Shown: positions 4,462-33,051 of the stretch, one piece after another
How positions within the stretch are numbered: the stretch's first letter is position 1
Layout: each line of letters starts with the position of its first letter
Origin: a virus
Length of the DNA: 36,835 nt
IMG/VR virus record: IMGVR_UViG_3300032315_001259
Coordinates: 1 to 36,835 of that record
Reading direction: 5' to 3' (one strand)
The notes under the pieces: generated by a model
What the model saw: the letters and a program-made list of their open reading frames with translations, nothing else
The model's database searches: none
What the model was told of the DNA's origin: nothing
Program-made: the position numbers and the translations under genes

Positions 4462-5349
4462 TTATGCTATATCTAAAATAGTTTCATTTAGATCTAAAAA
4501 ATGCTCATCACAAATTCTTTGTGTTTCTAAATCATACTCTAAAATAAGACAATGCTCTGCAGATTTTTGATATATATTTTTGGAAAGTACTATAATTAAT
4601 CTTTCATCAATCTCTACCATTCCTCTCAAAAAGAATTTACCCCAATTAGTATGAAGATCAAAGAATTGATTTTCTTTACTTTTAAAGGAATGGCGCATCA
4701 TCTTTCCAGTTTGACTAGAAATAGAATATAAATGATCTTTATATATTGCAAGATTGTGATTAAAAATACCAACATCTTTTATTTTATTTTTGAATTGAAA
4801 GTTTGTTAAACCAATTTCTAATATTTCACTATAACCACAACCTCTCTTGTTAAGAAGTAAGAATAAACTATCTTGATATTTTAAAATTGAATTAACATGA
4901 AGGTTGTCTTTCTCATAAACATCTTTTGGGGGATCTATATCATCAACAAATTCAAGATTTTCAAGCATCAAATACTTATTCTGTTTTGTGTTTAAATCGT
5001 AAATTCCAAGACTATCATTCGCAGTATTACAAATAAATAATTTTTCTTCATGTTTAAGTATTTGATGAGTATTCACAAAACACTTCACATTATCAAGCAA
5101 TCCTTTGTATGAATAAGTTTTAGCATCAAAGTGTCCAATTCTTGAATTAGATGCAATAAAAATATCATTAGAATCTCTATAAATTCCAAATGGTCTATAG
5201 GTATCTTTTCCCCTATTTTGAGAAGAAAGATCATTGAGATCTTCTATTCTTTCTTTATCAAAGATAATTTTTTTTTCTTTAATATCATAAACAAGAAATG
5301 AAGAATTTTGTTTTGAGGTTGTGATGATAATATCACTATTCATGTACAT
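4462..5349 (-). CDS. Predicted six-bladed beta-propeller protein, function unknown
   Basis: The 295 residues show about six weak repeats of ~45 residues. Each has an IxxxxDxLFI-type strand pair followed by a small turn and a YDLxTK-type strand: DIIITTSKQNSSFLVYDIK, NDIFIASNSRIGHFDAKT, EKLFICNTANDSLGIYDLNT, DSLFLLLNKRG, DHLYSISSQTG and ERLIIVLSKN. This spacing is typical of propellers, and the LHVNSIL motif near residue 150 recalls bacterial DUF4915/TIGR03032-type propellers. No catalytic motif or signal peptide is visible. The start overlaps the end of the upstream oxygenase gene: ATG at 5349 gives MYMNSD and ATG at 5343 gives an 8-base overlap; I cannot tell which is used. The overlap implies co-translation with the oxygenase, so a shared task is plausible but unproven. 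Confidence 0.8.
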   Translation of the reverse strand: MYMNSDIIITTSKQNSSFLVYDIKEKKIIFDKERIEDLNDLSSQNRGKDTYRPFGIYRDSNDIFIASNSRIGHFDAKTYSYKGLLDNVKCFVNTHQILKHEEKLFICNTANDSLGIYDLNTKQNKYLMLENLEFVDDIDPPKDVYEKDNLHVNSILKYQDSLFLLLNKRGCGYSEILEIGLTNFQFKNKIKDVGIFNHNLAIYKDHLYSISSQTGKMMRHSFKSKENQFFDLHTNWGKFFLRGMVEIDERLIIVLSKNIYQKSAEHCLILEYDLETQRICDEHFLDLNETILDIA

Positions 5350-5959
5350 CTTCGGCAGTCAATATTTTGAAGACACAAGCATATCTATTCTGTAAGCAAG
5401 TTTTTGATATAATTCCTGCAGAATGTGGAATATTTTTATTAAAAACTACAACTCTATTTTGTTTAGGAATAACTGAATGAATGATTTCATTTTCGTATTC
5501 AGTTTCATCATCATTTGGTAGATTTTCTTTTTTTGTAAATTTTGTATAAAAATTTGTTTGCCCACCCCAAGTTACTTTCCATTTACCGGAAAGATATAAA
5601 ATGGCAGTCAACCCCAAAGAATATGCATTATCATCTACATGTATTACATCTTCATCCCCAAATCTAGATACATTTATATAAGCACGTTTAAGTCTATAGT
5701 CTTTTACCGGTAATAATTCCTTTGTTTTTTCCCAAAGGGACTTAAGAGGGTTTTCTTTAATCTCTTTATCTCCCCGATTCTCATCATAAAAAGACCAGTT
5801 ATATTTCAATCCAACAGACTCCGTTCCCTTAAAATTATAATGACTACTATAATTAGAAGTTTTCACTAACATTTGAGATTCATGAATCAGTTCTTCATCA
5901 TAAATCCCATCATGTACTTTTAAGTATTTTTTCATATTAGTTTTTTGGAAATTAATCAT
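5336..5959 (-). CDS. 2-oxoglutarate/Fe(II)-dependent oxygenase (207 aa)
   Basis: A prolyl-4-hydroxylase-type jelly-roll enzyme. The iron ligands are visible as H107-x-D109 (VIHVDDNAYSLG) and distal H179 (NIPHSAG), with R192 (NRYACVF) as the likely 2-oxoglutarate anchor. YLSGKWKVTWGGQTNFY is the expected central strand region. The frame is open up to 6124, but the start at 5959 is preferred: GGAGG lies five bases before this ATG and it overlaps the upstream stop by eight bases. A longer N-terminus would overlap the neighbouring coding region by more than 150 bases. The family hydroxylates proteins, nucleobases or small molecules; the substrate here is unknown. The gene is co-translated with the propeller downstream. 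Confidence 0.9.
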   Translation of the reverse strand: MINFQKTNMKKYLKVHDGIYDEELIHESQMLVKTSNYSSHYNFKGTESVGLKYNWSFYDENRGDKEIKENPLKSLWEKTKELLPVKDYRLKRAYINVSRFGDEDVIHVDDNAYSLGLTAILYLSGKWKVTWGGQTNFYTKFTKKENLPNDDETEYENEIIHSVIPKQNRVVVFNKNIPHSAGIISKTCLQNRYACVFKILTAEDVHE

Positions 5960-6515
5960 CTGTGCCTCCGAATTGAGGATCCATCCTGTGTCTGAATACT
6001 GTGACTCCGTTAATTGCATTAACGCTGACGCCAGCATAAGCAACATTACCGGACAACCCGCCCGAGCCGAGATCAGATCTAAATTGCAAACTATTAGAAC
6101 CAAAAAATGTTGGACGGGATACATTGGTATTATTACCAGTATAAGTGGAAGCTAAGCTTCCACCAATGTATAAGTATAAGTTATTATAGCCGTAACTAAG
6201 ATTTTGTCTACCAGTGTTGATATAAAATGTAACCGGACTATTAGCATCTCCAGGAGTTATGGTAGTTCCAATAAAAGAATCTGTAATGAAAGCTCCTTGA
6301 ATTTCTCTATCCCCCATTATATAGTAAGTATTCCAACCACCAAAAGCAGGAGATCCAGGAAGACTCTTCCCATAAAAATCAGCAAGACTTATAGTACCAC
6401 TTGCGGGAACACCAGCAGCAACTCCATAATACTCATTAATTCCAATAGGAGCGAACCCCCCAAATTCAGTTTGAACATTAGCAAGACTAATTGAACCCGA
6501 AGATTGGAGAGTCAT
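5952..6515 (-). CDS. Short virion/fibre-like protein (187 aa)
   Basis: Residues 1-52 contain SGSISLANVQTEFGG, GINEYYGVAAGVPASGTISL and ADFYGKS. This small N-terminal domain is common in cyanophage structural proteins, and a diverged form starts the glycine-rich adhesin at 23812-24873 (AIKFSDITTEFGTPTG ... GVPTAGAISFSQLKGK). The remaining ~130 residues are rich in Tyr, Asn, Gly and Ser without a recognisable enzyme motif, which suits a beta-structured tip domain. It ends with GGTDD, whose codons overlap the start of the oxygenase gene. The start at 6515 follows the upstream stop by about 13 bases, with no strong ribosome-binding site. It is probably a minor virion protein; the exact position is unknown. 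Confidence 0.8.
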   Translation of the reverse strand: MTLQSSGSISLANVQTEFGGFAPIGINEYYGVAAGVPASGTISLADFYGKSLPGSPAFGGWNTYYIMGDREIQGAFITDSFIGTTITPGDANSPVTFYINTGRQNLSYGYNNLYLYIGGSLASTYTGNNTNVSRPTFFGSNSLQFRSDLGSGGLSGNVAYAGVSVNAINGVTVFRHRMDPQFGGTDD

Positions 6516-12139: not shown

Positions 12140-15100
12140 TCATCCAAATGCTATTGAAAGACGGAGTGCTTCATCAAGTATATTAACCCCTTTAACTCTC
12201 ACTACTGTTGAACTATTTATATCACCCGCAACATCAAGTTTATAAACAGGATTTGTAGTTCCAATACCAAGATTTCCTGTGCTAGGAATAAACACCAAAC
12301 CAGTAGAGGAAATTCCAACTGAACTTACGCCAACATTATTTGCAAGTGTTGGATAAACTGGTGATGATGCTAATGTTTGATTAATAACATTAAATGCATT
12401 TACGCCGGTTAGATTTCTACCATCACCATAATAAGTTACGATACCAGATGGACTGGTTGCACTAATAATACCAGCATTAATTGAAACACTTCCTAATGTA
12501 GAAATTCCAGTAATAGAAACATTACCAACAACTTGTAGTTTTGATGTTGGATTTGTAGTTCCAATACCGACATTATAAGAACTATTGCCAGTAATCCAAG
12601 CAGTACTACCAGCACCAATGACTAGTTGATTAGAACCATTGAGGATTGGTGTATTTTGATCTTTACCAATAATAACGTTTTCGGATCCAGTTTGATTATT
12701 ACTACCAGCACTAGGACCAATAAAGATATTATCACTTCCAGTAGTGTTGAATTGTCCTGCGAAATTACCAATGAAGTTATTACTACTTCCAGAAGTGTTC
12801 ATTCCTCCTGTATATGGACCAAAGAAGTTATTAAAATTTCCATCAATGTTAGCAAATCCAGCATAATAACCAAAGAAGTTATTGTCATATCCAGTGGTAT
12901 TGGATTGTCCTGCACCATTACCCAAAAAATTATTATTAGATCCGGAAGTAATTGAAGACCCAGTAAATTCATTACCAAGTCTTATATTGCTATCAGCAAA
13001 ACTAATTCCAGTAGTTCCGGCAATTGAAATTCTTGTAGTTGGATTTGAAACACCAAGACCCAAATTGCCAGAAATATAAGCACCGCCAGTAATCTGAAGT
13101 CTTTGACTTGCAGTTCCTGTTGAAGTTCCACTTCCAATTAATACTGGACCTCCCACAAAAGTAGAAACACCAGAAATAGTTAAAGTTGTAGCACCAATTC
13201 CACCAACAACTTCTAAATTGAACTTCGGTGTAGAAGTACTAATTCCAAGATAACCAGTATTATAATCATAATAAACTTGATTAGTTCCAGAGAAGATTCC
13301 TGCTCTATTATATTGTAATTGCTTATCAATGCCACTAGGGTTGGTGACAATACCAACACCACCTGCACTTTGCCAAACAATACTTGAACCATTGGAAGTT
13401 AAAACATAACCAGAGTTTCCAACAGCATTTGTGCTATCGTAGATACCACCACGAATTCTTACATTTCCATTTACATCTAAATTTGTAGATGGTGTAGTAG
13501 TTCCAATACCAAGTGAATTTGAACTTGGTATAAACACCAAACCAGTAGAAGAAATACCAACTGAACTTACACCAATATTAGTCGCAAGTGTTGGATAAAC
13601 TGGAGAAGACAATACATTCTGCTGAATAACATTGAAGGCATTTACGCCAATCAACTTTGAACCATCACCATAATAAACAACTGTACCTACACCAACAGCA
13701 GTAATAATACCAGCAGAGATTTGAACTCCAGCAACAGTAGAAACACCAGAGTAGTTTAGATTAGTTCCAAACAAACTAGTGATTGTACCAACACCTACAT
13801 TAATATTTGTAACATTAATAGAACCAGAACCACCAGTTGCATTTACATTACCATAGAATGTTGTTGCAGTTACAACACCAGAAACTGACACATCGCCAGA
13901 AACCTGTAATTTTGATGTAGGATTTGTGGTTCCAATACCAATATTAAAGTTCTCATTGCCAACTAACCAATACTTACTTTCATTAGAATCTGTTCTTACC
14001 CCAATTGCAAGTTGAGTATTTTTTTCTGTATCCGGAGAATCAAATTTATTACTAAAACCATCACCACTTCCAATAATAATTTTATTAGATGCATTAACAG
14101 ATATACCTGTTTCTGCACCCAAATATACGTTTCTGGATCCACTTTCATTAGCAGATCCAGATTGTTCCCCAACAGCAACATTAAAGTCACCAGTAGTATT
14201 ATTAACTCCAGCAGATTGTCCAAAGAAACTGTTCAAATAACCAGTAGTATTATTAAATCCAGCATATCTACCCACAAAAACGTTATTGAAACCAGTAGTG
14301 TTAAAATAACCAGAACTTTCTCCTATAAGTGTATTTCCATCTGAATTGGAAAAATAACCAGCATCTTGTCCAATAAAAGTATTATAATCTCCAGTCGAGA
14401 GTGAACTTCCAGCTCCAACACCTATTAAAATATTTGCATTTTGAGAAGAGGGTAATAATGATTTTCCAGTTTGCGAATCTCCTATCTTTATTTGAGCGGT
14501 AGTTGCACCATACCAAAGATATGTACTAAATCCTAAAGTACCATTAACTTCAAGTTTTGATGTTGGATTTGTGGTTCCAATACCAAGATTTCCTGTACTT
14601 GGAATAAATACAACTTGCGTTGTAGAAATACCAATAGAAGTTACACCAACACTATTTGCAAATGTTGGATATACTACCGAAGAACTTAATGTTTGGTTAA
14701 TAACATTAAAAGCATTTACCCCAGTTAAATTTCTTCCATCTCCATAATAAGTTACAATGCCAGATGGACTAGTTGCACTGATAATTCCAGCATTAATTAG
14801 AATACTTCCTAACGTTGAAATACCAGAGTAGTTAATATTTGTACCAGAAAGTGTGGTTATGATTCCAGTATTATAATAAGCATTGCTACCAGATATTGTG
14901 GTGATATTACCAGATGTATATGTTAGCGCAGCACCAACAAGAGAAGTGACAATACCAATATTGTAGTAAGCATTACTGCCACTTAAAGTAGTAATGTTGC
15001 CAGTTGTAATAGTGGCAGCAGTACCAGTTAACGCACTTATAGATCCATTCGTATAAGTTAGATTAGTACCAGAAAGTGTTGTAGTAATACCAGTATTATA

Positions 15101-18100
15101 ATAAGCATTACTTCCACTTAAAGTAGTGATATTACCAGTTGTAATGGTGGCAGAAGTACCGGTAATAGAAGTTAATGAAGAATTGCTATAAGTTAAATTA
15201 GTACCCGAAAGAGTAGTTACAATACCTGTATTATAATAAGCATTGCTACCAGATATTGTGGTGATATTACCAGTAGTAATTGTAGCAGCAGTGCCAGTAA
15301 TATAAGTTACATTACCATTCGTATAAGTTAGATTAGTGCCACTTAAAGTAGTGACGATTCCAGTATTATAATAAGCATTAGAACCGCTTAAAGTTATGAT
15401 GTTACCAGTCGTTACTGTTGCTGCTGTTCCAGTAAGAGATGTTACACTTCCGTTGGTATAAGTTAGATTAGTACCGGAAAGGGTAGTTACGATACCAGTA
15501 TTGTAGTAGGCATTAGAACCACTTAAAGTAGTAATATTGCCAGTAGTATAAGTTAGTGCTGTACCAGCAAGTGCTGTTGCAATACCTATATTTTGATAAC
15601 CATAAGTAGCAGAAAGTGTGGTTACAATCCCAGTGTTATAAGTTGCTGTTGTGCCACTTAAGGTAGTTACGATACCAGTATTGTAGTAAGCATTACTTCC
15701 ACTTAAAGTAGTGATGTTACCAGTTGTAATGGTAGCAGAAGTACCAGTAATAGAAGTTAATGATGAATTAGTATAAGTTAGATTAGTACCAGAAAGAGTA
15801 GTAACAATACCAGTATTATAGTAAGCATTACTTCCACTTAAAGTAGTGATATTGCCAGTTGTAATGGTAGCAGAAGTACCAGTAAGAGAAGTTAATGATG
15901 AATTAGTATAAGTTAAGTTAGTACCGGAAAGAGTAGTTACAATACCAGTATTGTAGTAAGCATTACTTCCACTTAAAGTAGTGATGTTACCAGTCGTATA
16001 AGTTACAGCAGTACCAGTTAATGCAGTAACAATTCCTGTATTGTAATATAAATTCTCGCCCGAAAGTGTTCCTACATTTCCAAAAGTATAAGTTACAGCA
16101 GTACCCGCAAGAGCAGTAATAATTCCTACATTTTGATAAGCATAAGTGCCAGTTAAAGTATTAATATTACCATTTGTGTATGTAATTCCAGTACCAGAAA
16201 GTGCTGTGATTAATCCTACATTTTGGTAAACATAAGTACCAGTTAAAGTATTAATATTACCGGAAGTATAAGTTACAGCAGTGCCAGCAAGATAATCAAT
16301 ATTACCAACAAGAGAATTGACAGTACTATCAGTAATCTGCACTCCACCAACTGCCAAACGAACACCATTAGGGACTTGCGTAGAACCAATTCCTACACCA
16401 TAATTAAACATAAAGACATCAGTATTAAGTCCACTAAATGTCCCCGATTTTACCCACATTATCTGCTTGTAGGTATCTGGCAGACTATTAATTCCTACAG
16501 TTCTCATAGAAATCAATGGACTTCCAACAGTACTCGCAACTGCTATACCACCGTGATTTGCAGTATTATCATTTGATAAGTCGGTGGGTCCTCCATAATT
16601 ACTAGTCACAACACCAGTAATAATATCTCTATCGGTAATTGATAAAGTATTTACACTAATAGTGGCACTAGTACCACCGATACTTAAGTTTCCAGAAACA
16701 GATAAGTCGCCAAAAATACTAAAATTATTTGAAGTTGCTAGTCTATTTGCAGAAACAGTACCGGAATTTAAATTATCGGCATTTTGATAGAAAGAACCAG
16801 GCTGACTATTCAGGTACTGAGCATTTAAATTTGTGACTAATGTAGAAGAGGCAACAGAAATTGGAGCAGATCCTGTTCCAACAGTAGAAACAAAACTATA
16901 AGCAGTAACTACACCAGAAGAATTAATATTATTGGTAACATTAAGATTTGCAATAGTCGCATCAGTAACAGATAATGTCGTAATGATACCACTATTACTT
17001 TTTAATGTTGAAATAGTACCAACACCAGTATAGTTTAGATTAGTTCCATTTATATCAGTTACAATACCTGCATTTGTATTAAGATTTGTGATATTTCCAG
17101 TAAAACTATTCAGTGTATTAACTGTGCCAACACCAGTATAATTTAAATTAGTCCCTTTAATATCAGTTACAATACCAGTATTATAATAAACAGTATTACC
17201 ACTTAAAGTAGTGATGTTACCGGCAGTATAAGTAATTCCAGTACCAGCAAGAGCAGTAATAATTCCTACATTTTGATAAGCATAAGTGCCAGTTAAAGTA
17301 TTAATATTACCATTTGTGTATGTAATTCCAGTACCAGAAAGAGCAGTTATATTTCCATTTGTATAAGTAAGTGCAGTACCTGTGAGTGCTGTTATGACAC
17401 CAATATTGTAATATCCATAAGTACCACTTAAAGTATTAATATTACCAGCGGTGTAAGTTAATGCTGTACCAGCAAGTGCTGTAATTAATCCTACATTTTG
17501 GTAAGCATAAGTTCCACTTAAAGTAGCGATATTGGCAGATGTAATGGTAGCAGAAGTACCAGTAATAGAAGTTAATGATGAATTGGTATAAGTTAGATTA
17601 GTACCAGAAAGTGTTGTAGTAATACCAGTATTGTAGTAAGCATTACTTCCATTTAAAGTAGTAATGTTACCAGTAGTGATTGTAGCGGCAGTACCAGTAA
17701 TAAAAGTTAATGATGAATTGGTATAAGTTAAGTTAGTACCAGAAAGCGTAGTTACAATACCGGTATTGTAGTAAGAATTGCTACCAGATATTGTGGTGAT
17801 ATTACCAGTTGTATAAGTTAGTGCTGTACCGGCAAGAGCAGTTACAACACCAACGTTATGGTATCCATAAGTACCAGAAAGCGTAGTTACAATTCCGGTA
17901 TTATAATAGAGATTACTGCCAGATAATATGGTGATATTGCCAGTAGTAATGGTGGCAGAAGTGCCGGTAATAGAAGTTAATGATGAATTAGTATAAGTTA
18001 GATTAGTACCGGAAAGTGTAGTGACAATACCAGTATTATAATAAGCATTACTTCCACTTAAAGTAGTGATATTACCAGTCGTATAAGTTAGTGCTGTACC

Positions 18101-19810
18101 AACAAAATAATTTACATTACCATTCGTGTAAGTTAAGTTAGTACCGGAAAGGGTAGTGACAATACCAGTATTATAATAAGCATTACTTCCACTTAAAGTA
18201 GTGATGTTACCAGTTGTAATAGTAGCAGCGGAACCAACAAAATAATTTACATTACCATTCGTGTAAGTTAAGTTAGTACCAGAAAGCGTGGTTACAATTC
18301 CGGTATTATAATAAGCATTAGAACCACTTAAAGTAGTAATATTGCCAGTCGTATATGTAAGCGCAGTACCAGTAAGAGCAGTTACACTTCCATTCGTGTA
18401 AGTTAAGTTAGTACCAGAAAGCGTGGTTACAATTCCGGTATTGTAATAAGCATTGGAACCTGATAGTGTAGTGACATTACCATTCGTGTAAGTTAAGTTA
18501 GTACCAGAAAGCGTGGTTACAATTCCGGTATTATAATAAGCATTGGAACCACTTAAAGTAGTAATATTGCCAGTAGTGATTGTAGCGGCAGTGCCAACAA
18601 TATAGGTTATATTTCCATTCGTATAAGTTAGATTAGTACCAGAAAGTGTTGTAGTAATACCAGTATTATAATAAGCATTGGAACCTGACAATGTAGTGAT
18701 ATTGCCAGTAGTTATTGTTGCTGCTGTTCCAGTAAGATAACTTACATTTCCGTTGGTATAAATTAAATTAGTACCACTTAAAGTAGTTACAATACCGGTA
18801 TTGTAGTAAGAATTGCTACCTGACAATGTAGTGATATTGCCAGTAGTATATGTTAAAGCAGTACCAGCAAGTGCAGTTACAACACCTACATTATGATAAC
18901 CATAAGTACCACTTAAAGTAGTTACAATTCCGGTATTATAATAGAGATTACTGCCAGATAATGTGGTGATATTGCCAGTAGTGATTGTAGCGGCAGTACC
19001 AGTAATAGAAGTTAATGATGAATTGGCATAAGTTAAGTTAGTACCGGATAATGTGGTTACAATTCCAGTATTATAATAAGCATTGCTACCAGATATTGTG
19101 GTGATATTACCAGTTGTATAAGTTAGTGCTGTACCGGCAAGAGCAGTTATAATACCAACGTTATAGTATCCATAAGTACCAGATAATGTAGCAATATTAC
19201 CAGTAGTAATAGTAGCAGCAGCGCCAGTAATATAAGTTACATTTCCGTTGGTATAAGTTAAGTTAGTACCAGAAAGTGTTGTAGTAATACCAGTATTATA
19301 ATAAGCATCACTTCCACTTAATGTAGTAATATTACCAGTAGTGTATGTTAAAGCAGTACCAGCAAGTGCAGTTACAACTCCTACATTATGATAACCATAA
19401 GTACCAGAAAGTGTAGTGACAATACCAGTATTGTAATAGAGATTATTGCCAGATAATGTGGTGATATTGCCAGTAGTATAAGTTAGTGCTGTACCAGCAA
19501 GTGCTGTAACTAATCCTACGTTATAATACTCATAAGTACCAGAAAGTGTGGTGATATTTCCAATACTATAAGTTGCTGCTGTACCTGCAATTGTAGTAAT
19601 TGTTGCAACACCAGCATTAATCTGTCCGTTAAATGTAACAGCAGTAACAACACCAGTAAATCCACCATCACCAACTACATATAAAGATGACCCAGCAAAT
19701 GTTGTTCCAATGCCGACATTTCCAGTAACCTGCAATGAAGTAGTATTTTCACTAAAAGAAGAAATACCAACCTTAAGATTTCTTTGTCTGCCGCTTAAGA
19801 ACTGTGTCAT
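12140..19810 (-). CDS. Giant repetitive tail fibre (2556 aa), no S74 domain
   Basis: After ~65 N-terminal residues (MTQFLSGRQRNLKVGISSFS) the protein is dominated by a 15-residue repeat of consensus G(T/S)xxxYxxGx(I/V)TxL(S/T), in two blocks (about residues 65-950 and 1165-1665), roughly ninety units in all. The blocks are split by a domain containing TQ-type linker LVTNLNAQYLNSQPG and GGIAVASTVGSPLISMRTVG. Beyond residue 1665 three copies of a YYGDG(R/S)(N/K)L(T/I)GVNAFNVI module alternate with two blocks of GxxAGxxNTTGxxN repeats resembling trimeric-autotransporter heads. The chain ends VRVKGVNILDEALRLSIAFG with no S74 dyad. Regular short repeats with conserved Gly and Leu suggest a long beta-solenoid or trimeric beta-helix shaft. 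It is probably the longest fibre of the virion. Confidence 0.92.
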   Translation of the reverse strand: MTQFLSGRQRNLKVGISSFSENTTSLQVTGNVGIGTTFAGSSLYVVGDGGFTGVVTAVTFNGQINAGVATITTIAGTAATYSIGNITTLSGTYEYYNVGLVTALAGTALTYTTGNITTLSGNNLYYNTGIVTTLSGTYGYHNVGVVTALAGTALTYTTGNITTLSGSDAYYNTGITTTLSGTNLTYTNGNVTYITGAAATITTGNIATLSGTYGYYNVGIITALAGTALTYTTGNITTISGSNAYYNTGIVTTLSGTNLTYANSSLTSITGTAATITTGNITTLSGSNLYYNTGIVTTLSGTYGYHNVGVVTALAGTALTYTTGNITTLSGSNSYYNTGIVTTLSGTNLIYTNGNVSYLTGTAATITTGNITTLSGSNAYYNTGITTTLSGTNLTYTNGNITYIVGTAATITTGNITTLSGSNAYYNTGIVTTLSGTNLTYTNGNVTTLSGSNAYYNTGIVTTLSGTNLTYTNGSVTALTGTALTYTTGNITTLSGSNAYYNTGIVTTLSGTNLTYTNGNVNYFVGSAATITTGNITTLSGSNAYYNTGIVTTLSGTNLTYTNGNVNYFVGTALTYTTGNITTLSGSNAYYNTGIVTTLSGTNLTYTNSSLTSITGTSATITTGNITILSGSNLYYNTGIVTTLSGTYGYHNVGVVTALAGTALTYTTGNITTISGSNSYYNTGIVTTLSGTNLTYTNSSLTFITGTAATITTGNITTLNGSNAYYNTGITTTLSGTNLTYTNSSLTSITGTSATITSANIATLSGTYAYQNVGLITALAGTALTYTAGNINTLSGTYGYYNIGVITALTGTALTYTNGNITALSGTGITYTNGNINTLTGTYAYQNVGIITALAGTGITYTAGNITTLSGNTVYYNTGIVTDIKGTNLNYTGVGTVNTLNSFTGNITNLNTNAGIVTDINGTNLNYTGVGTISTLKSNSGIITTLSVTDATIANLNVTNNINSSGVVTAYSFVSTVGTGSAPISVASSTLVTNLNAQYLNSQPGSFYQNADNLNSGTVSANRLATSNNFSIFGDLSVSGNLSIGGTSATISVNTLSITDRDIITGVVTSNYGGPTDLSNDNTANHGGIAVASTVGSPLISMRTVGINSLPDTYKQIMWVKSGTFSGLNTDVFMFNYGVGIGSTQVPNGVRLAVGGVQITDSTVNSLVGNIDYLAGTAVTYTSGNINTLTGTYVYQNVGLITALSGTGITYTNGNINTLTGTYAYQNVGIITALAGTAVTYTFGNVGTLSGENLYYNTGIVTALTGTAVTYTTGNITTLSGSNAYYNTGIVTTLSGTNLTYTNSSLTSLTGTSATITTGNITTLSGSNAYYNTGIVTTLSGTNLTYTNSSLTSITGTSATITTGNITTLSGSNAYYNTGIVTTLSGTTATYNTGIVTTLSATYGYQNIGIATALAGTALTYTTGNITTLSGSNAYYNTGIVTTLSGTNLTYTNGSVTSLTGTAATVTTGNIITLSGSNAYYNTGIVTTLSGTNLTYTNGNVTYITGTAATITTGNITTISGSNAYYNTGIVTTLSGTNLTYSNSSLTSITGTSATITTGNITTLSGSNAYYNTGITTTLSGTNLTYTNGSISALTGTAATITTGNITTLSGSNAYYNIGIVTSLVGAALTYTSGNITTISGSNAYYNTGIITTLSGTNINYSGISTLGSILINAGIISATSPSGIVTYYGDGRNLTGVNAFNVINQTLSSSVVYPTFANSVGVTSIGISTTQVVFIPSTGNLGIGTTNPTSKLEVNGTLGFSTYLWYGATTAQIKIGDSQTGKSLLPSSQNANILIGVGAGSSLSTGDYNTFIGQDAGYFSNSDGNTLIGESSGYFNTTGFNNVFVGRYAGFNNTTGYLNSFFGQSAGVNNTTGDFNVAVGEQSGSANESGSRNVYLGAETGISVNASNKIIIGSGDGFSNKFDSPDTEKNTQLAIGVRTDSNESKYWLVGNENFNIGIGTTNPTSKLQVSGDVSVSGVVTATTFYGNVNATGGSGSINVTNINVGVGTITSLFGTNLNYSGVSTVAGVQISAGIITAVGVGTVVYYGDGSKLIGVNAFNVIQQNVLSSPVYPTLATNIGVSSVGISSTGLVFIPSSNSLGIGTTTPSTNLDVNGNVRIRGGIYDSTNAVGNSGYVLTSNGSSIVWQSAGGVGIVTNPSGIDKQLQYNRAGIFSGTNQVYYDYNTGYLGISTSTPKFNLEVVGGIGATTLTISGVSTFVGGPVLIGSGTSTGTASQRLQITGGAYISGNLGLGVSNPTTRISIAGTTGISFADSNIRLGNEFTGSSITSGSNNNFLGNGAGQSNTTGYDNNFFGYYAGFANIDGNFNNFFGPYTGGMNTSGSSNNFIGNFAGQFNTTGSDNIFIGPSAGSNNQTGSENVIIGKDQNTPILNGSNQLVIGAGSTAWITGNSSYNVGIGTTNPTSKLQVVGNVSITGISTLGSVSINAGIISATSPSGIVTYYGDGRNLTGVNAFNVINQTLASSPVYPTLANNVGVSSVGISSTGLVFIPSTGNLGIGTTNPVYKLDVAGDINSSTVVRVKGVNILDEALRLSIAFG
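12610..12960 (-). repeat. GxxAGxxNTTGxxN head-like repeats, block near C-terminus of giant fibre
   Basis: About six or seven repeats of ~17-18 residues, such as NTTGYDNNFFGYYAG and NTTGSDNIFIGPSAG. The type matches the cut-off gene at 1-326. It probably forms a short trimeric head domain near the fibre end. Confidence 0.8.
14080..14450 (-). repeat. GxxAGxxNTTGxxN head-like repeats, upstream block
   Basis: About seven repeats of ~17-18 residues, such as GDYNTFIGQDAGYF, NTTGFNNVFVGRYAG and NTTGDFNVAVGEQSG. It is a second, diverged block of the repeat class found at 12610-12960, placed between two copies of the VNAFNVI module. Confidence 0.8.
14810..16320 (-). repeat. 45-bp tandem repeat array 2 (15-residue units)
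   Basis: About 33 in-frame 45-bp units (estimated from length) encode variants of GSNAYYNTGIVTTLS, GTNLTYTNGNVTYIT and GTAATITTGNITTLS. Many neighbouring units are nearly identical at DNA level, for example repeated plus-strand CCAGTATTATAATAAGCATT. Confidence 0.9.
16960..19620 (-). repeat. 45-bp tandem repeat array 1 (15-residue units)
   Basis: About 59 in-frame 45-bp units by length, of the same consensus as array 2. Units cycle through three flavours (NAYYNTG, NLTYTNG and AATITTG types). At the distal end (near 16980-17160) the units degrade into GTNLNYTGVGTxxTL spacers. Confidence 0.9.
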
Positions 19811-19817
19811 TTTTTTA

Positions 19818-20159
19818 TTAGTTGAGTGTTTCTAAAATACTACCGATAAACTTAATATTATTTGGATCACTTGCCGATAAAACCAAAGCATCACCAGATT
19901 GTAAAATTAACTTACCGGACAAAAGTGACGTAGTATCATTGCCAGAAATTGGAAAACTTTTTACAATTTCGGTTGTGACTGCAATACCACTAATTGTTCT
20001 TTGATGATAAAATGAAATTGTATAAGTAGAAGAACTAATATTTGCTGCTTGTGCCAATAAAACAACACCAGTATATCCAACGGGAGCGGTATAAATTCCA
20101 ACTGGATTTGTTGGTGCTATTTGCGTAACCGTCTTAAAAACATTTAATGCTAATGCCAT
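19818..20159 (-). CDS. Small virion-associated protein of fibre cassette, paralogue (113 aa)
   Basis: This is homologous to 11808-12134 through GIYTAP, AANIS, SFPISG, GKLILQSGDALVL and the SILETLN end. It is a probable single beta-sandwich domain with no enzyme motif. A strong AGGAGGA lies nine bases before the ATG, inside the last codons of the upstream gene, giving coupled translation. It sits eight bases ahead of the 2556-aa fibre, the same order as its paralogue and the 1442-aa fibre. A structural adaptor or assembly role is inferred from position only. Confidence 0.82.
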   Translation of the reverse strand: MALALNVFKTVTQIAPTNPVGIYTAPVGYTGVVLLAQAANISSSTYTISFYHQRTISGIAVTTEIVKSFPISGNDTTSLLSGKLILQSGDALVLSASDPNNIKFIGSILETLN

Positions 20160-22361: not shown

Positions 22362-22937
22362 ATGAGTCAAATGGAATTAAATACCAAAAGTTTTTATCAC
22401 ATTCCATCTGGAATACCCAAGGAAGTATGTGAAATTATTAAAAATACTTGTCGTGGAGATGACGAAATTGAAGATTCAGTCGTGTTCCCAAACAAAATAA
22501 TAGATACTAAAATTAGAAAAAGCAAATCCTTATGGTTGCCTACTGATGGTTGGATTGCCGGAATGTTGGCGCATTTCATATATCATTCTAATTTTAATTT
22601 TTTTCATTATGATTTACATCAATGGGCAGATAGAATTCAATATACTGTATATGAAGGAAAGGGAAGTCATTATGGTTGGCATTATGATACGGCACTAAGT
22701 TCTTTTTACGAAAATTCTATGCGAAAATTATCTATAACTATGATGCTTTCAGAAAAAGATGAGTATGAAGGAGGGCAATTTCAATTAATGCTATCTCCAA
22801 AAGATATGAAAACTTTTGATCTGAACCTAGGAGACGTTATTATATTCCCTTCGGAGTTAATGCATCGTGTGAGACCTTTGAAAAGTGGAACCAGAACTAC
22901 ATTAGTTGGATGGTTTGGTGGACCACCTTTAAGATAA
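22362..22937 (+). CDS. 2-oxoglutarate/Fe(II)-dependent oxygenase, prolyl-hydroxylase type (191 aa)
   Basis: Iron ligands H107-x-D109 (HYGWHYDTALS) and H168 (ELMHRV), and the 2-oxoglutarate-binding R178 (GTRTTLVGWFGG), are all present in the right order and spacing. EGGQFQLML and GDVIIFPS are the conserved core strands of the P4Hc/PiuC-like family. Such genes are frequent in cyanomyoviruses, and their substrate is not established. It opens a three-gene plus-strand island followed by an unknown protein and a glycine-rich, partly collagen-like adhesin. The start MSQMEL is the first ATG in the frame, with no strong ribosome-binding site. The island orientation, opposite to all surrounding genes, hints at acquisition as a block. 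Confidence 0.92.
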   Translation: MSQMELNTKSFYHIPSGIPKEVCEIIKNTCRGDDEIEDSVVFPNKIIDTKIRKSKSLWLPTDGWIAGMLAHFIYHSNFNFFHYDLHQWADRIQYTVYEGKGSHYGWHYDTALSSFYENSMRKLSITMMLSEKDEYEGGQFQLMLSPKDMKTFDLNLGDVIIFPSELMHRVRPLKSGTRTTLVGWFGGPPLR

Positions 22938-23811: not shown

Positions 23812-24873
23812 ATGACCACACCAACAGGAGCAATAAAATTTTCAGATATTACTACTGAATTTGGAACTCCTACTGGAAATAATTTAGGAGCATTTAGAGT
23901 TAATCAAACTATCGTAGGTCAAAGTTGGCCTTTAGATACTGGAGTTCCAACTGCTGGTGCAATAAGTTTTTCGCAACTTAAAGGGAAAACTTTAAATGTA
24001 GTTATTGATTCTGGTACTACTGGTGGTGATGAATATGATGTAACTTTGACAAATTATTTTCCATCTAAAGCAACTGCAGTTGGAGGATTTTATACACTTC
24101 CTGGCGCACTATCATCTTTAGGCGGAAAAAAATATTATGTATATTTAAGAAAAGATTATGGTGGATCTGCTTCTGTAACTACAAGTGTAAAGTCTGGTGC
24201 TTGGCCTTCTGGATCCACATTAAACGTTGTTGTTTCCGATAGTGCTACAATCTGGGGTCGTGGTGGTAATGGTGGAGGTGGAGCTAATGGTGGCGCTGGA
24301 ACTTATGGTAGTGGTGGCGGAACTGGATTGAATTCAATCGGATTTTCATATTCTGCAAACTTATCTATCAGTTCTGGATCTAGAATTATTGCTGGTTTTG
24401 GTGGCGGCGGTGGTGGTGGCGGCGGTTTCTCAAACCCAGATACAGGTTCATATGATCCTTCGTGGGGTGGTGGAGGCGGCGGCGGTGGACAAGGAAATCC
24501 AGGAGGAAATGCTGGTTCCGCTGGTATTGTGGGAAATCCTGGTACACCCGGAAATGCTGGTACTGTAGGTTCAAAAACATCCGGCGGAAATGGTGGTGGG
24601 CAAGGTTGCTTCCCCCAAATCAATGGTTCAGGTGGCGGCGGCGGTGGTGGCAGTGGAATTACTTTTGGGTATGGCGGAAAATGTCCAAGTAACCCTTTCT
24701 TTGGCGATTCCGGAGCTGATGGTAGTGTGACCAGTGGTGGAGGTGGTGGCGGAACTGGTGGTGGAGGTGGTGGAACTGGATCGGCAATATTGCAAAATGG
24801 AGCTACCGTTACTGTTAGTAATGGTGGATATTGTTATCCTTCAGCAACTCCAGTTACTGCTGCTTTTACTTAA
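23812..24873 (+). CDS. Glycine-rich adhesin-like virion protein with collagen-like stretch (353 aa)
   Basis: Residues 1-60 are the small structural domain also found at 5952-6515 (AIKFSDITTEFG, GVPTAGAISFSQLKGK). Residues ~65-145 look beta-rich. From ~150 to ~330 the chain is extremely glycine-rich with runs of six to nine Gly and N-G-G/S-G-G patterns. Glycine-rich blocks of this kind recall T-even gp38-type adhesins, where they pack as polyglycine II helices; homology to gp38 itself is not shown. Residues 235-255 form seven uninterrupted Gly-X-Y triplets, including GNP and GTP. The C-terminus is SNGGYCYPSATPVTAAFT. It is probably a receptor-binding tip protein. The stop is one base from the stop of the converging 2246-aa fibre. 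Confidence 0.82.
   Translation: MTTPTGAIKFSDITTEFGTPTGNNLGAFRVNQTIVGQSWPLDTGVPTAGAISFSQLKGKTLNVVIDSGTTGGDEYDVTLTNYFPSKATAVGGFYTLPGALSSLGGKKYYVYLRKDYGGSASVTTSVKSGAWPSGSTLNVVVSDSATIWGRGGNGGGGANGGAGTYGSGGGTGLNSIGFSYSANLSISSGSRIIAGFGGGGGGGGGFSNPDTGSYDPSWGGGGGGGGQGNPGGNAGSAGIVGNPGTPGNAGTVGSKTSGGNGGGQGCFPQINGSGGGGGGGSGITFGYGGKCPSNPFFGDSGADGSVTSGGGGGGTGGGGGGTGSAILQNGATVTVSNGGYCYPSATPVTAAFT
24514..24576 (+). repeat. Collagen-like Gly-X-Y triplets within glycine-rich adhesin
   Basis: Seven consecutive triplets: GSA, GIV, GNP, GTP, GNA, GTV and GSK. Two have proline in the Y position, the usual target of prolyl 4-hydroxylases in collagen. Confidence 0.65.
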
Positions 24874-24874
24874 T

Positions 24875-27800
24875 TTATTTTTTCTTAAGTTCTTCAATTT
24901 CTGCTTTCAATTCCTTGATTGCTTCAATTAGAAGTGGTACAATTTTTTCATATTTGACAGTCTTGTAATTTTCACCACTTCTAGAATACTCATTTCCATC
25001 ATCATCAACATCAATATCAAATGGTGCTGCTTTCACAACTTGAGGAAGTACTTTTTCTACTTCTTGTGCGATAACACCAACTTGTTCTTCTCTTGTATAT
25101 CCAAAAGAAGCAGCAACATCATTTGCATTATATGTAACTCCACGAAGAGAACATACTTTATTAAGAGCATTTGCAATTGGACTGATATTTTCTTTCAGTC
25201 TCAAATCAGAATAGAATGCGGTAATATCATTTGTTGCACGAATTTCGCCAGCAGTACCTGAAGCAGCAGTTCCAACACCAAAGGAATTAACTTGATAATT
25301 ATTTCCAGTTACAAGAGCACTTGCCGTACCAGTTAAAGTTGCAGTAATAGTTCCAGCACTAAAGTTACCTGAAGCATCACGAGCAACTACTGTAGATGCA
25401 GTATTTGCACTTGTAGCATTTATTGTAATAGTTGCAGATGCAGAGTTATTAAATGATCCAGACAAGTAAGTTCCAGTAGAAACACTATACTGAAGAGTTC
25501 CATTTAAGTTGGTAGCACTAATTGTACCAGCACTAAAGTTACCAGAACCATCACGAAGCACAATACTGCTTGCCGTATTTGCGCTTGCAGTTTGATAACC
25601 TTGCAGATAAGAAACATTTAAATTGCTAACTTGTGTAGTGGAAGATACAACAAATGGTGCAGTTCCTGTTGTAATATTTGAAGTAATAGTTCTACTTGTA
25701 ATATCACGAGCAGCAAAATCACCATTTACATCTCTAGAAACAATACTTGCACTATTATCGCCAAGAGTCCAAGTTGATTTTGCATCAACATTAAGTTCTC
25801 TTGCTGTACTTCCATTATAAGTGGAACCACTTGTATAACTTAAATGAGTATTGAGAGTTAAATCTCCAAGATTACTTCCAAGAGCAACACCAGAAATTGT
25901 ACTATTTGCTAGATTTGCATTTGAAATTGCAGCAGAACCAGAAAGATTGGTATTTGTCAGTCCAGTAATCGTATTTGAACCAGCAGCAATTGTTTTATTA
26001 GTTAAGGCATCAGAAGTATTTTTACCAACTAGTGTATCTGTTGCTGCTGGTAATGTGAGAGTTCCACTTGCAGTTGATGATGCTACTAATTTAGTAAATC
26101 CAGAAGTTCCTTTAAAATCAATACCAGAAGTACTAACTGTACTAATTCCAATATTATTTAAATTGGTAATTGTAGCATTTGTATAAGTAACAGCAGTACC
26201 CGCAAGTGCTGTAATAATTCCTACATTTTGATAAGCATAAGTACCACTTAATGTAGTGATATTGCCAGTAGTGTAAGTTACAGCAGTACCAGTAAGTGCT
26301 GTAATTATGCCAACATTTTGATAAGCATAAGTGCCAGTCAACGTTGTGATATTACCAGTAGTGTAGGTTACAGCAGTGCCAGTTAAGGCACTAATCGTGG
26401 AAGAACTGGCATTTAGTCTTCCTGCAAATGTGGAAACTCCAGCATATGTTGAATTGAAAGAACTACCAACGTTAATATTTGCAGTATTAGAGAAAGTAAC
26501 ACCAGTACCAGTAACTTCTAAATTATAAAGTTGCGAAATGCCTTGTATGTGTTTCTGGGTATAAGCAGTTACAATTGCCCCAACTGAATTTGTTCCTGGG
26601 AAAACTGCACCATTATAAATCGTGATTCCTTCAAACGCAACACTACTAAATGTTTGTGGAGTAATAAATGTAACAGATTCAGTTACATAAAGATTTTTAA
26701 ATCTTGCAGTTCCATTCACTTCCAATTCATTTGTGAATGGGAATGTTGCATTTGTTTGTCCAATTCCAAGTCTATCTAAACGAAGAACATCCAAGTCCTT
26801 CTCCATACTAATCATTCCAAATCTCTTCCAGTCACTATCGGCATAAACGTGACCTACATATCCACCAGATACTGGGCTGGAAATTAGAGAAATATCACCA
26901 GAACGAGCACCAGAAATTACTGCAGAAGTTGGAGTAGAAATTCCAACGGTAATTAATTTTGATTGTGAAGCAGTTCCTTTAATGAATAAGTTTTTAGTTT
27001 CAATTCCGTTATCTGATGTATTTGTAATTTTTTGTGTGAAATTTACAGGACCATAGAATTGTGATGTTTGATTATTATTTTCACCACCTTCAACTGTAAT
27101 TCTTTCTTTTACGACAATATCATCATAATATCCACTCAATCTCTGGGTCAAATCTGTATTTGCATCATCTCCAGTATAAGTGAATATTGGAGCATCAAAG
27201 AGTTCTTCTTCTCCAGTAATAGAAGTGAGTTTCTTTGAACCAGAATAAAACTCACCCAAATCGTTCATACCAGAATAAACAATTGTTCCGCCATCTTGTT
27301 CTTTTGCTTGGGAAACAATTATTTCATCAGTTGTTAGAACTTTAGTTTGCTTTTGAGGAAGACCAGTTGAATAGTTACCGGGACCATATCCAACATATTC
27401 AAAAGTATGACCAGAACCACGAATATACGATGGGCGATGGAATTGAATTGGAATGATACGAATTTTCTTAACAAGAGTTCCACTATCTGCTGCTGCTGAA
27501 ATTGTACCAAATTGTCCACGAATGACTGACGTGCAAGCATCATTTAAGATACGAAGAACTTCTGAATTAATTTGGATGAAATCGCCCTTTTTGAATCCAT
27601 TTGGACTTGAGAGATTAATTGTAGTTGCCGAAGAAGATAAAGAACTTCCAAGTGTTACAGAAATACCACCGTAAATGTAAGATGCACGACCACCAAGATT
27701 GCTTTCGCCATCACCAATTGGAAGAGCATTTACTCCAATACCTTGCTTTAAGACTGTACCACCACTCACATAAGGTTGTGTTGCAGTCACAATACCAACA

Positions 27801-30800
27801 TTAAATGTAAACGTAGTAAGACCAACTACACTTTTGACTACAAATGAACTATCATAGATTGCCTGTCCTGTACCAACGATTGTAAATTTATTACCAACAA
27901 GCAATCCGTGAGATGTAGATGTAGTAACTGTTGCAATTCCAGTCCTAATATCAGTAAAGTTTAAAGTTGAAATTGTTGAACCTTCTGCCGTAATTGCGGC
28001 ATAAGGCAATGTGCCGTCAGTTCTAGACGTATAAACACCAACATTATTTGCATTATAAACTGTAAATTGTTTTGGTCCAGAAATTGCTGTAATTTTAAAT
28101 AGGCCATTATAACCTTCACTTGCAAATCCAACGATTTGAATTGAATCGCCAATATTATTATTGATAGAAGTCACTTGTACAGTTGCAAGTGTTGTTCCAC
28201 CTGCAATACTCATTGTATTTCCTACACCATAAGCACTACCACCATCTACAATACTTACATCTATTGGAACGCCAGCAGTCAATGAAACTTTAACTGTTGC
28301 ATTAGTTCCTGCTCCAGTTCCGCCCACCAAAGCAGCAGAATAGAGTGTCGTTGAACCATATCCAGAACCAGCAGCAGTCAACGAAAGTGCAGAAATTGCA
28401 TTTAAATTGTGCTCTCTATCAGTATAGAAAGTGACAGCAGTCCCAGTCACAGCAGCATAAGTAATACCAAAACCAATTGTATTTTCTCTTATAAATGAGT
28501 CAAGAGTTTCTTTTGTGACTGAATTTCTCTTATCATCTGTTGTGACTTTTCCAAGTGGTTGAATATCTGCATAAGATGTTGATGCTTTTGGATCTGAATT
28601 ATAATTATCCCTATCTAATTGTGGATAAAGATTGCGAACATCTTGATTGTATTTTTTATAACTAATACCATATCCAACATTTTTAAGTGTTGGTGATTCA
28701 CCCGAAGACATTACTGTAAGATGATAGATACCATCTTGTCCTGTAGTTGAAGAACCAGGAATAAACTTTTTAATTTCATCAATTCTATAGATGAAATAAG
28801 TATCGTAATATCTCTCTCTAGTTACAGTTGGAAGTGCTTCTACTTGTTGTGAAGTAGTTCTTTGATTTGTGACATTTGCAAAAGATCCAGGATCAGTAGC
28901 AATACCAGAAACAGTAAAGGTTTTGCTGCTTGGAACTGTTGCAATTGTGAAGGAACCATTAAATACAGAAGATGCAGAACCTGCTAAATTATTTGAACTT
29001 AATACATTTTGAATTTTAATTCCATCACCAGAACTTAAATTATGTGGAAGTTCAGTTGTAATAGTAATTACATTTGAAGAATACGATGCACCAGTAATGA
29101 TTTTTGGATTTTTAAGTTGTGTAGAATCCGAAAGGTTACCAGATAAAACTCCAGGACTATCAATTGTTGTTGTACTACTTTCCTGAATAGTATAACCAGC
29201 AATTGGTGGTCGCGCATTTGTTGCTTCTTTTGGAATTACATAACGAAGTTTATAAATTCTTTCATTTAATGAACGATTATCTAACTTTCTTTTCACAAAA
29301 GTAGAACCAGATTCTAATCCCAATCCAGTTGTACCCAATCCTACAATTGCATTGTAGATATTATTATCTTGTGTGGAATTGGAACAAGTAATATACCAAT
29401 TTGAATTCGTAGAGTCAAATTGAATTGGATGTCCAAGATCTCCTGGTTGCTTGTCGGTTACTGAACTGACAATAGTAAGAATACCACCAAGATTATTAGT
29501 TCCATTAATAGTTCTTGGAGTTGCAGCAATTGCATCACTATATGTTGGTGAAAGTTTAACTTGATTTGAAGAACCAGTTGTGGAAATATAATAAACTTTA
29601 TTCAATTCAATATTATTTGGAGATTCTGCAGTATCACTAAATACTCTTACTTTTTCTCCATTATAGAAGTTATGAGCACCTGTAAGTGTAAAGATATCAC
29701 TACTAATGCTATTGATGCCGGAATTTCTTCCAACAGTAGATACTTTCTGCGCGGAATATACTGAACCACCAGGGGACTGCATCAAGACTGGTGCAGTATA
29801 AGTTGTTTGTGCTGTTCCAATAGTTACTGTTAGATTTAACAGTTCGTTTTGTTTTGCTCCAATACGATAACTATCAACTTGATGCGGTGGAGCAATATCT
29901 AAACTGTTATATCCATAAAGATATAGATTTGAGATTGTTGCTGCTGAAATTGTTTTTGTAATATCTAATGATAACCAAGTAACTTCATTTTCATTTGTAA
30001 TAACTTCTCTTGGCGGAATAATGTGAGTAATGTATCCAGTATTGTCACGATCAAATGCTTCTTTGCGGAAACCAACAGATTCAAGAGCTACAGCACCAAA
30101 GTTACTATTAGAGTTGGTGATGGACATATCACCACCACTTTCAGCTAAAAATTGTCTAGCATAACCAATCGCAAAGATAGATACGCACTGAACAAAACCA
30201 CCATTTGATACTTTTACGTGGTTATTTTCATATGATGGTTTGTAGATGGAACCAGAATATGTGTGAAGTGGGGAATTTGATGATTGACTATTATCTTTAA
30301 ATGATTTGCTGGTTGAATCATAATCAATAAAAGCATTATCATCTTTTTGTAGTGACACACCAGTAAATTGAGCCACAACCATTGATTTAAAACCAGTGGA
30401 TTTGCTTCCATCAGCGTGTATTCCACTCATACCATAAACTGATCTTATAGAACAATTAAAGATATAAGGAGAAGCAGAAGAAACGCTATCTGCTTCTATA
30501 ACAACTTGTGCATCTTGAAGATAAGTAACAGGATCTGGAACTAGATTTGTTGGAGATCCTAATGATGTATAGGTGAATGTGGTGAGTCCTACGATACCAC
30601 TTACAACAAATGAACCATTATAAATGCTGGTATCAATACCAACACCCTTCATTAAAATTGGAGTATCAACAAAAAGACCGTGAGTTGCGTTGGTGGTTAC
30701 AGTAATAGATGAAGATGGGGTTACACCATCACCAGAACGAATACTTGTGATTCCAAGATTGTTTGCGTTTAGATTTCCAACAATACGATATTCATCTACA

Positions 30801-31869: not shown

Positions 31870-31898
31870 ATTCTAGCACATATTTTGAGTCTTGTCAA
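31870..31898 (-). promoter_or_regulatory. Strong sigma70-like promoter, TTGACA-17-TAGAAT
   Basis: On the minus strand the -35 TTGACA (31893-31898) is a perfect consensus. The -10 TAGAAT (31870-31875) has an extended TG one base upstream, and the spacer is 17. The stop codon of the upstream oxygenase gene lies within the -35 box. It would serve the 57-aa gene. Confidence 0.7.
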
Positions 31899-32446
31899 GG
31901 GGTCTGGTCCATTATAAAATCTTCATATGGGAGATGGGCACCGAACATCCAAAGTATTCTGGGAGTTTCTCCTTTCACTTCAGTTACATAATGAGTTTGC
32001 TCCGAAGCATAATAACAATGTAAATCTCCAACATTAATATCAACTAACTCATCATCCACATATAATTCTGCACCTTCTTCTGTTGCTTGAGCCATTATAT
32101 TACAACGATATGTTGTCCAACCATTTTCTGCTTTTGGATCACGATGACTATAGACATCACCACCTTTATAAGTTACAGAGACAACTACACCTTCACTACC
32201 GTGACCCATAATTAATGGTCTATGGGATATTCTCATAAATTCACGAATTCTATTTGAAATATCAATTACAAGTTCGGGATATTTTTTATCCTTCATATGC
32301 ATTCTACTGGTTAATCTTTTTTTATATTGATGATTTCCTCGTGAAACTCCCAAATTAATCCACCCCTCTTCAACACCATTTAAGGCAATTTCAGATAATT
32401 GCTCACATTCCTCTAATGTGATAAAATTTTTAAATATTTTAATCAC
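31895..32446 (-). CDS. 2-oxoglutarate/Fe(II)-dependent oxygenase (183 aa)
   Basis: Iron ligands H101-x-D103 (YSHRDPKAENGW) and H152 (EQTHYVTEV), with R163 (TPRILWMFG) as the 2-oxoglutarate anchor, make a complete active site. Core strands GAELYVDDE and INVGDLHCYY agree with the fold. The predicted start is GTG at 32446, overlapping the sulfotransferase stop as GTGA; the next in-frame Met lies inside the fold and would be too late. It is the third and most diverged oxygenase in this window and the last gene of the 34214-31895 operon. The substrate is unknown; pairing with a sulfotransferase suggests small-molecule or surface modification, which is inference. Confidence 0.88.
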   Translation of the reverse strand: MIKIFKNFITLEECEQLSEIALNGVEEGWINLGVSRGNHQYKKRLTSRMHMKDKKYPELVIDISNRIREFMRISHRPLIMGHGSEGVVVSVTYKGGDVYSHRDPKAENGWTTYRCNIMAQATEEGAELYVDDELVDINVGDLHCYYASEQTHYVTEVKGETPRILWMFGAHLPYEDFIMDQTP

Positions 32447-33051
32447 AATTCAGTAGAATATTCAAATTTTTCAAATTCATCCTTACAATAATTTTTTATA
32501 ATCTCAACCATTTCTGGTGTATATACAGTTTTATAATTTGGTCCAGGAATAGCATTAATTTGATATTCACTCCAACTAACATTACATTCTTCTAAAAATT
32601 CTTTTACTAATTCCATATTTTCAAATTTAAATAATTTAATATTACTCTCATCTTCCCCATTTACATAATTAACTTGTGACTGCATAAAATAATATTTTTT
32701 ATAATCACCATTTCCAAATTTTTTTACAAACTCTTCAAAAGTTTCTGGAACTTCTGGAAAATCTGGATTATTTGCTTGTCCGTGTTGTCTTGACCATTTC
32801 CATAAACTATGAACTCTATTATATGGATTTCTAACAACTACAAAAAATCCAACTTGATCGGAATTTGCTGCAGGTAATGCCCGTTTAACAAATTCAATTG
32901 TTGGAGCATTTTTAACAGGAATTGAGAAATCATTTACATCAGTAAATGGATCGTGTATTTTTGAAATTTTATTATTAACTTTAAGCAAATTTTTAATGAA
33001 CATTCCCGCCGTTTTTGGAATGTGAATGTAGATATATAATTTCTTTTCCAT
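32443..33051 (-). CDS. PAPS-dependent sulfotransferase (202 aa)
   Basis: IHIPKTAG at residues 9-16 is the 5'-phosphosulfate-binding loop, and VVVRNPYNRVHSLW at 71-84 carries the 3'-phosphate-binding Arg74 and Ser82 expected for the Sulfotransfer_2/carbohydrate sulfotransferase family. The C-terminal TPEMVEIIKNYCKDEFEKFEY matches the family's closing helix. At 202 residues it is shorter than the usual 230-280, with a reduced acceptor-binding region, but both cofactor motifs are intact. No signal peptide or membrane segment is visible, so it should act in the host cytoplasm on a soluble, lipid-linked or virion substrate using 3'-phosphoadenylyl sulfate. It is co-translated with the oxygenase downstream. 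Confidence 0.88.
   Translation of the reverse strand: MEKKLYIYIHIPKTAGMFIKNLLKVNNKISKIHDPFTDVNDFSIPVKNAPTIEFVKRALPAANSDQVGFFVVVRNPYNRVHSLWKWSRQHGQANNPDFPEVPETFEEFVKKFGNGDYKKYYFMQSQVNYVNGEDESNIKLFKFENMELVKEFLEECNVSWSEYQINAIPGPNYKTVYTPEMVEIIKNYCKDEFEKFEYSTEL

Follow-up and report, generated by a model that had tools for sequence, protein, structure and literature searches.

A strict 15-residue repeat array as the probable rod of a giant cyanophage tail-fibre protein

The window analysed here, a 36.8-kb virus record (36,835 nucleotides), contains a 2556-aa open reading frame whose translation repeats every 15 residues over long stretches. The locus raises the question of what such an array builds and whether its length can change. 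Our preferred answer, to which we assign a probability of about two in three, is that the ORF encodes a structural protein of the long tail fibre and that its arrays form a likely trimeric, length-setting rod.

Gene neighbourhood and the 15-residue array

The giant ORF lies between a 113-aa protein and a 618-aa fibre protein upstream and a 108-aa protein and a 1442-aa S74 fibre downstream (Table 1). S-SKS1, P-SSM2 and S-SCSM1 show the same arrangement (fibre, ~113-aa protein, giant fibre), and it is kept in S-SRM01, but with two small genes inserted. In this gene order the ORF resembles the long tail fibres of these Kyanoviridae (PSSM2_295 in P-SSM2, gp28 in S-SCSM1), in which the syntenic genes are annotated as tail fibre or baseplate proteins. 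Relatives of the 113-aa protein occur in 85 phage records, one of them annotated as a virion protein, and without exception these records are Synechococcus or Prochlorococcus phages or unnamed marine viruses. Judged by synteny, the gene belongs with those for the long tail fibres of T4-like cyanophages (Kyanoviridae), and the host is a cyanobacterium of the ocean or of a lake. The neighbouring fibres carry C-terminal S74 chaperones; a Peptidase_S74 domain is absent from the C-terminus of the 2556-aa ORF, in which no Pfam family was found. Host-recognition regions are hypervariable in cyanomyophages and pelagimyophages, where collagen repeats and YadA domains have been noted (PMC7029224).

Several other ORFs of the window were recorded alongside. 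A 2OG-Fe(II) oxygenase (22362-22937, +; PF13640, phrog_61) sits on the opposite strand amid the fibre genes. Also on the opposite strand is a glycine-rich protein with long glycine runs (23812-24873, +), possibly a fibre tip protein. By eye, the ORFs at 5336-6124 and 31895-33051 (−) resemble oxygenases and a sulfotransferase, and the segment 31895-32446 had no match in Pfam or PHROGs. YadA-like 17-residue repeats make up an ORF cut at the contig end (1-326, −), and a 237-bp tandem repeat of 1.8 copies (36409-36835) lies within an 855-aa fibre ORF of S74 type that continues past the contig end.

The array was delimited with a 15-position profile, which finds 86 strict units in two blocks of 54 and 32 and one stray match at aa 933. 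Unit length is always 15 residues, and neither block contains a phase slip or a gap. Shuffled proteins yielded a mean of 0.02 profile matches and a maximum of 1, and lag-45 identity in the blocks is 0.61-0.67 as compared to a shuffled maximum of 0.18-0.21. These shuffles rule out chance or low complexity as the source of the array. Autocorrelation maxima fall at 45, 90, 30, 75, 15 and 60 residues. The consensus of the unit is G-T/S-x-x-x-Y-x-x-G-x-I/V-T-x-L/I-S/T, with conservation strongest at Gly1 and Leu/Ile14 (85/87 each), followed by Gly9 (79/87) and Tyr6 (64/87). The original prediction of an in-frame array in two blocks, with conserved Gly, Tyr and Leu, is borne out; its figure of roughly ninety units becomes exactly 86, and these occupy 1290 of the 2556 residues, only half of the protein. 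The remaining residues belong to a conserved node, to two arrays of YadA-like repeats and to further fibre sequence. The second YadA-like array is the segment of the ORF that matches many cyanophage structural proteins, and the 26-residue unit type of the transition next to block 1 makes up whole arrays in relatives (for example, L147).

Table 1. Features of the giant fibre ORF and its surroundings, in window coordinates
Feature	Residues	Coordinates	Strand	Remarks
Small protein, 108 aa		11808..12134	−	PHROG 1276, as for the 113-aa protein
Giant fibre ORF	2556 aa	12140..19810	−	Single open frame
YadA-like ~17-residue array no. 2	approx. aa 2296-2435	12506..12925	−	Boundaries approximate
YadA-like ~17-residue array no. 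1	approx. aa 1785-1900	14111..14458	−	Boundaries approximate; no Pfam match
Block 2, 32 in-phase 15-residue units	aa 1176-1655	14846..16285	−	15-position profile
95-bp exact direct repeat, copy 2		16107..16201		Start of block 2
Conserved node, ~150 aa, between blocks	aa 1016-1172	16295..16765	−	44-59% identity to 60 relatives
Transition of 26-residue-type units (GTNLNYTGVGT...)	aa 886-946	16973..17155	−	By eye
Block 1, 54 in-phase 15-residue units	aa 76-885	17156..19585	−	15-position profile
95-bp exact direct repeat, copy 1		17247..17341		End of block 1
Two units missing from sister contig L009/L015	aa 436-465	18416..18505	−	Junction homology 53 bp
113-aa protein		19818..20159	−	Adjoins this fibre gene in relatives too
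Upstream fibre protein, 618 aa		20163..22019	−	phrog_17885 tail fiber, E 9e-193
~5 further 15-residue units		26177..26401	−	In 2246-aa S74 fibre ORF (24875-31615)

Divergence of the units and variation in their number

The units fall into four flavours: A, GSNAYYNTGIVTTLS (28 units); B, GTNLTYTNGxVTxIT (17); C, GTAxTYTTGNITTLS (33); and D, GTYGYYNVGVVTALA (8). Their order is strict. Each of the 17 B units is preceded by A, and only one of 84 adjacent pairs joins two units of the same flavour, where 24.6 would be expected. An ordered cycle of flavours had been foreseen, but with three rather than the four found. This non-random order suggests that the array grew by the copying of blocks two or three units long rather than of single units.

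At the DNA level, 83 of the 86 units are distinct. Mean identity is 52% between adjacent units and 69% between units three apart, and units with identical protein show ~79-83% mean DNA identity (three largest groups). The sequence GSNAYYNTGIVTTLS occurs in twelve copies, every one different in DNA, at a mean identity of 81%. Over 590 similar unit pairs, a choice that itself lowers pN, pS is 0.52 versus a pN of 0.11. As far as the codons tell, the array is old and is kept by selection at the protein level. These values contradict the earlier view that many units scarcely differ in DNA from their neighbours. Because the units have diverged, slippage between near-identical neighbours is unsupported as a route to length change in this array, although variation by whole units, the other part of that proposal, does occur in the fibre family. 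Exact repeats of 45-95 bp are numerous in the array. The two copies of the longest, 95 bp, flank the node 1140 bp apart, and recombination between them would delete the node (1140 bp) with the frame preserved.

Whole-unit variation was seen by comparing related contigs. Contigs with zero mismatches over 14-20 kb differ by 102, 69, 162 or 33 bp in their fibre arrays. Junction homology is 111-162 bp in four of these comparisons, and units may there have been collapsed in short-read assembly. L030 and L035 differ by 69 bp, equal to one 23-residue unit, and their junction homology is 7 bp; exact-repeat collapse therefore cannot explain this difference. A 2412-aa allele was found in three metagenomes and a 2446-aa allele in three different ones. 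Outside the fibre arrays, L127 and L128 are separated from L129 by a 65-bp indel near position 2686, these contigs being otherwise identical.

For the phage in the window, the sister contig L009/L015 is free of mismatches over 11,680 bp, after which two units are missing: the unit at aa 421-435 and the start of the next run directly into the end of the unit at aa 466-480, and 34 bases of contig follow the junction. Read from the DNA, the loss is suggestive, rather than proof, of length variation in this phage. Exact-DNA searches recovered no further strains of it, and the literature returned nothing on fibre repeat-number variation under those exact terms. That a contig of the same phage stops inside the array with two units missing, together with the many 45-95 bp exact repeats, leaves some room for the array length being partly an assembly artefact, with the true array longer, shorter or mixed in the population; the distinctness of nearly all units, a longest exact repeat that 150-bp reads can span, and a frame open all through make this quite improbable.

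The node and the arrays beside it

The node is present in 78 viral loci, and an alignment of 61 sequences contains 15 invariant columns. Six phage records, S-SRM01, S-SKS1, DSL-LC02 and DSL-LC03 among them, share it at 51-55%. The fibres of S-SRM01 and S-SKS1 are like the present one in the node but unlike it in the array: the six isolate fibre ORFs examined contain no 15-residue array and at most three scattered profile matches. Arrays of other lengths are found in S-SKS1 (34 residues) and DSL-LC03 (47 residues). The 34-residue copies of S-SKS1 (L169, 5076-10259) have a local identity of 0.99 and are apparently far younger than the present array.

Across 112 node-bearing fibres, repeats of at least five classes adjoin the node: collagen-like, YadA-like, 9-residue, 21-23-residue and Gly-Thr-Tyr, the last being the class of the present array. 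The kinds of array by the node include Gly-X-X, YadA-like 17-residue, the nonapeptide GIATYATSA, and 20-, 25/26-, 21-23- and 41/51-residue repeats. Collagen-like arrays lie beside the node in L098, L141 and L166, a YadA-like array in L029, and 9-, 20- and 26-residue arrays in L124, L044 and L147, respectively. At least 16 class changes are placed on the node tree (array-bearing rows; five classes), a count that is approximate because the labels come from regular expressions and contig ends truncate some of the ORFs. The class labels are still clustered on this tree; with all classes counted, none of 200 shuffles gave as low a value.

The Gly-Thr-Tyr motif occurs in relatives at periods of 20, 25, 26, 30 and 41, and a long strict 15-residue array was found in no relative of the searched set but the sister contig. 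Only the 15-residue blocks show strong hydrophobic power at period 5; it is moderate in the 30-residue array and absent from the 20-, 26- and 41/51-residue arrays. A strict 5-residue quantum across all related arrays, which had been considered, was therefore dropped. No family in Pfam or PHROGs matches the full ORF or the array, and a sequence search of the PDB gave a single chance-like match (E 0.02), in agreement with the original statement that the repeat is not a named domain. Searched with the repeat consensus, 50,697 phage records gave nothing at E 0.01, a result that low-complexity filtering may partly explain, and 84,980 genomes of bacteria and archaea gave a single weak match.

Architecture and role of the rod

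A single chain of 15 units was modelled with AlphaFold2 from an input alignment of 20 shifted copies. The best of five models is an all-strand beta-solenoid with a pLDDT of 76.9 and a pTM of 0.65, and pLDDT falls to 63.5 across the five. Foldseek comparison of the array model with PDB and BFVD gave no match at E<=0.001; the best PDB matches, all weak, are leucine-rich repeats and parallel beta-helices. This sole structure model of the array, those weak matches and the slip-free 15-residue period suggest an alternative in which each chain forms its own beta-solenoid, one unit per coil, with the shaft being one rod or a bundle of three. A solenoid would rise ~4.8 Å per unit, giving ~41 nm for 86 units, as compared to ~13 Å per unit and ~110 nm for an adenovirus-type triple beta-spiral. 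However, AlphaFold2 is known to over-predict beta-solenoids for repeats: such solenoids resulted for more than 40% of perfect repeats of random sequence, and confident ones are reported among them (PMC11795689). The model therefore lends little weight to a monomeric solenoid. The pLDDT spread, the lack of a library match at the threshold above, and the occurrence of the motif in relatives at periods of 25, 26, 30 and 41, which a fixed coil would not easily tolerate, also speak against it. We regard the solenoid as unlikely and favour a trimeric rod, because trimeric rods fill the array's place in homologues and related motifs tolerate other spacings.

The node was modelled at a pLDDT of 84.5, with confident blocks (means 87-91) that lack intrachain strand pairing; the unpaired yet confident part is the N-terminal third. 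In this predicted structure, the lack of pairing within the chain fits pairing with other chains, as in a trimer. Foldseek found no significant match to the node model.

In known proteins, stretches of collagen-like or YadA-like sequence form trimers, and the argument drawn from them is one of analogy, resting on shared position and not on homology of the repeats. The adenovirus shaft, a triple beta-spiral, is a trimeric rod with a 15-residue unit, a conserved turn residue and alternating hydrophobics (cited in PMC4576200), and in adenovirus type 2 it has ~22 units versus 86 in the present array. The present unit pattern fits it loosely, and the PDB sequence search did not match it. The triple-stranded beta-helix of T4 gp5 is likewise a trimeric beta rod of short motifs (VxGxxxxx; PMC4576200), but its motif has 8 residues rather than 15. 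In the EPclP fibres of EHEC prophages, the collagen-like stretches form true trimers, and their lengths vary in steps of whole units (PMC3368898). EPclP proteins share with the present one a short-repeat rod between non-repeat domains, whereas the present repeats are not Gly-X-Y and are predicted to be beta, not triple helix. Collagen-like coverage of the ORF, scored as Gly at every third residue, is 0, which rules out membership among collagen-like fibres. Compared by repeat type only, S-TIM4 ORF108, a 2235-aa YadA-domain cyanophage structural protein mutated in adaptation to other hosts (PMC6224464), is similar as a giant fibre-like protein with YadA-like repeats.

The fibre shaft first proposed for this gene is well supported by the gene order, the node, the S74-bearing fibre neighbours and the trimeric rods at the same place in homologues, and the 15-residue array is very probably the rod of the fibre. 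The presence of rods in the array's place in homologues argues for a spacer role. The regular Thr/Ser-rich strand pattern and the solenoid model could also describe a surface of repeated Thr-rich strands that binds a receptor or mineral and is not a rod, yet the replacement of the array by collagen-like or YadA-like rods makes this very improbable.

We infer that the array acts as a length-setting spacer in a trimeric rod. Three chains would most likely associate; each unit would add a fixed increment of length, its short beta strands set about a Gly turn (x-x-L-x-Y / N-G or T-G / V-T-x-L). Between the blocks, the node may serve as a junction or clamp the trimer, and the YadA-like arrays farther along the chain would form distal segments. 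The number of units and the type of array would then set the reach and stiffness of the distal part, and evolution would change both number and type, by whole-array swaps and by gain or loss of unit blocks.

More tentatively, at well short of even odds, the gene may be cassette-like, combining the node with interchangeable, architecturally unrelated rods of adjustable unit number, such that reach and stiffness are free to evolve apart from the receptor-binding tip; the present array would be a new type of trimeric beta-rod. Our analysis adds to structural work on fibrous proteins a regular 15-residue repeat that is absent from the searched Pfam, PHROGs and PDB sets. If the cassette proposal is true, cyanophage fibres would be modular, with a fixed junction domain and exchangeable rods (at least five classes) of adjustable length, and the role of fibre length, a long-standing question, would be directly testable with near-isogenic natural variants.
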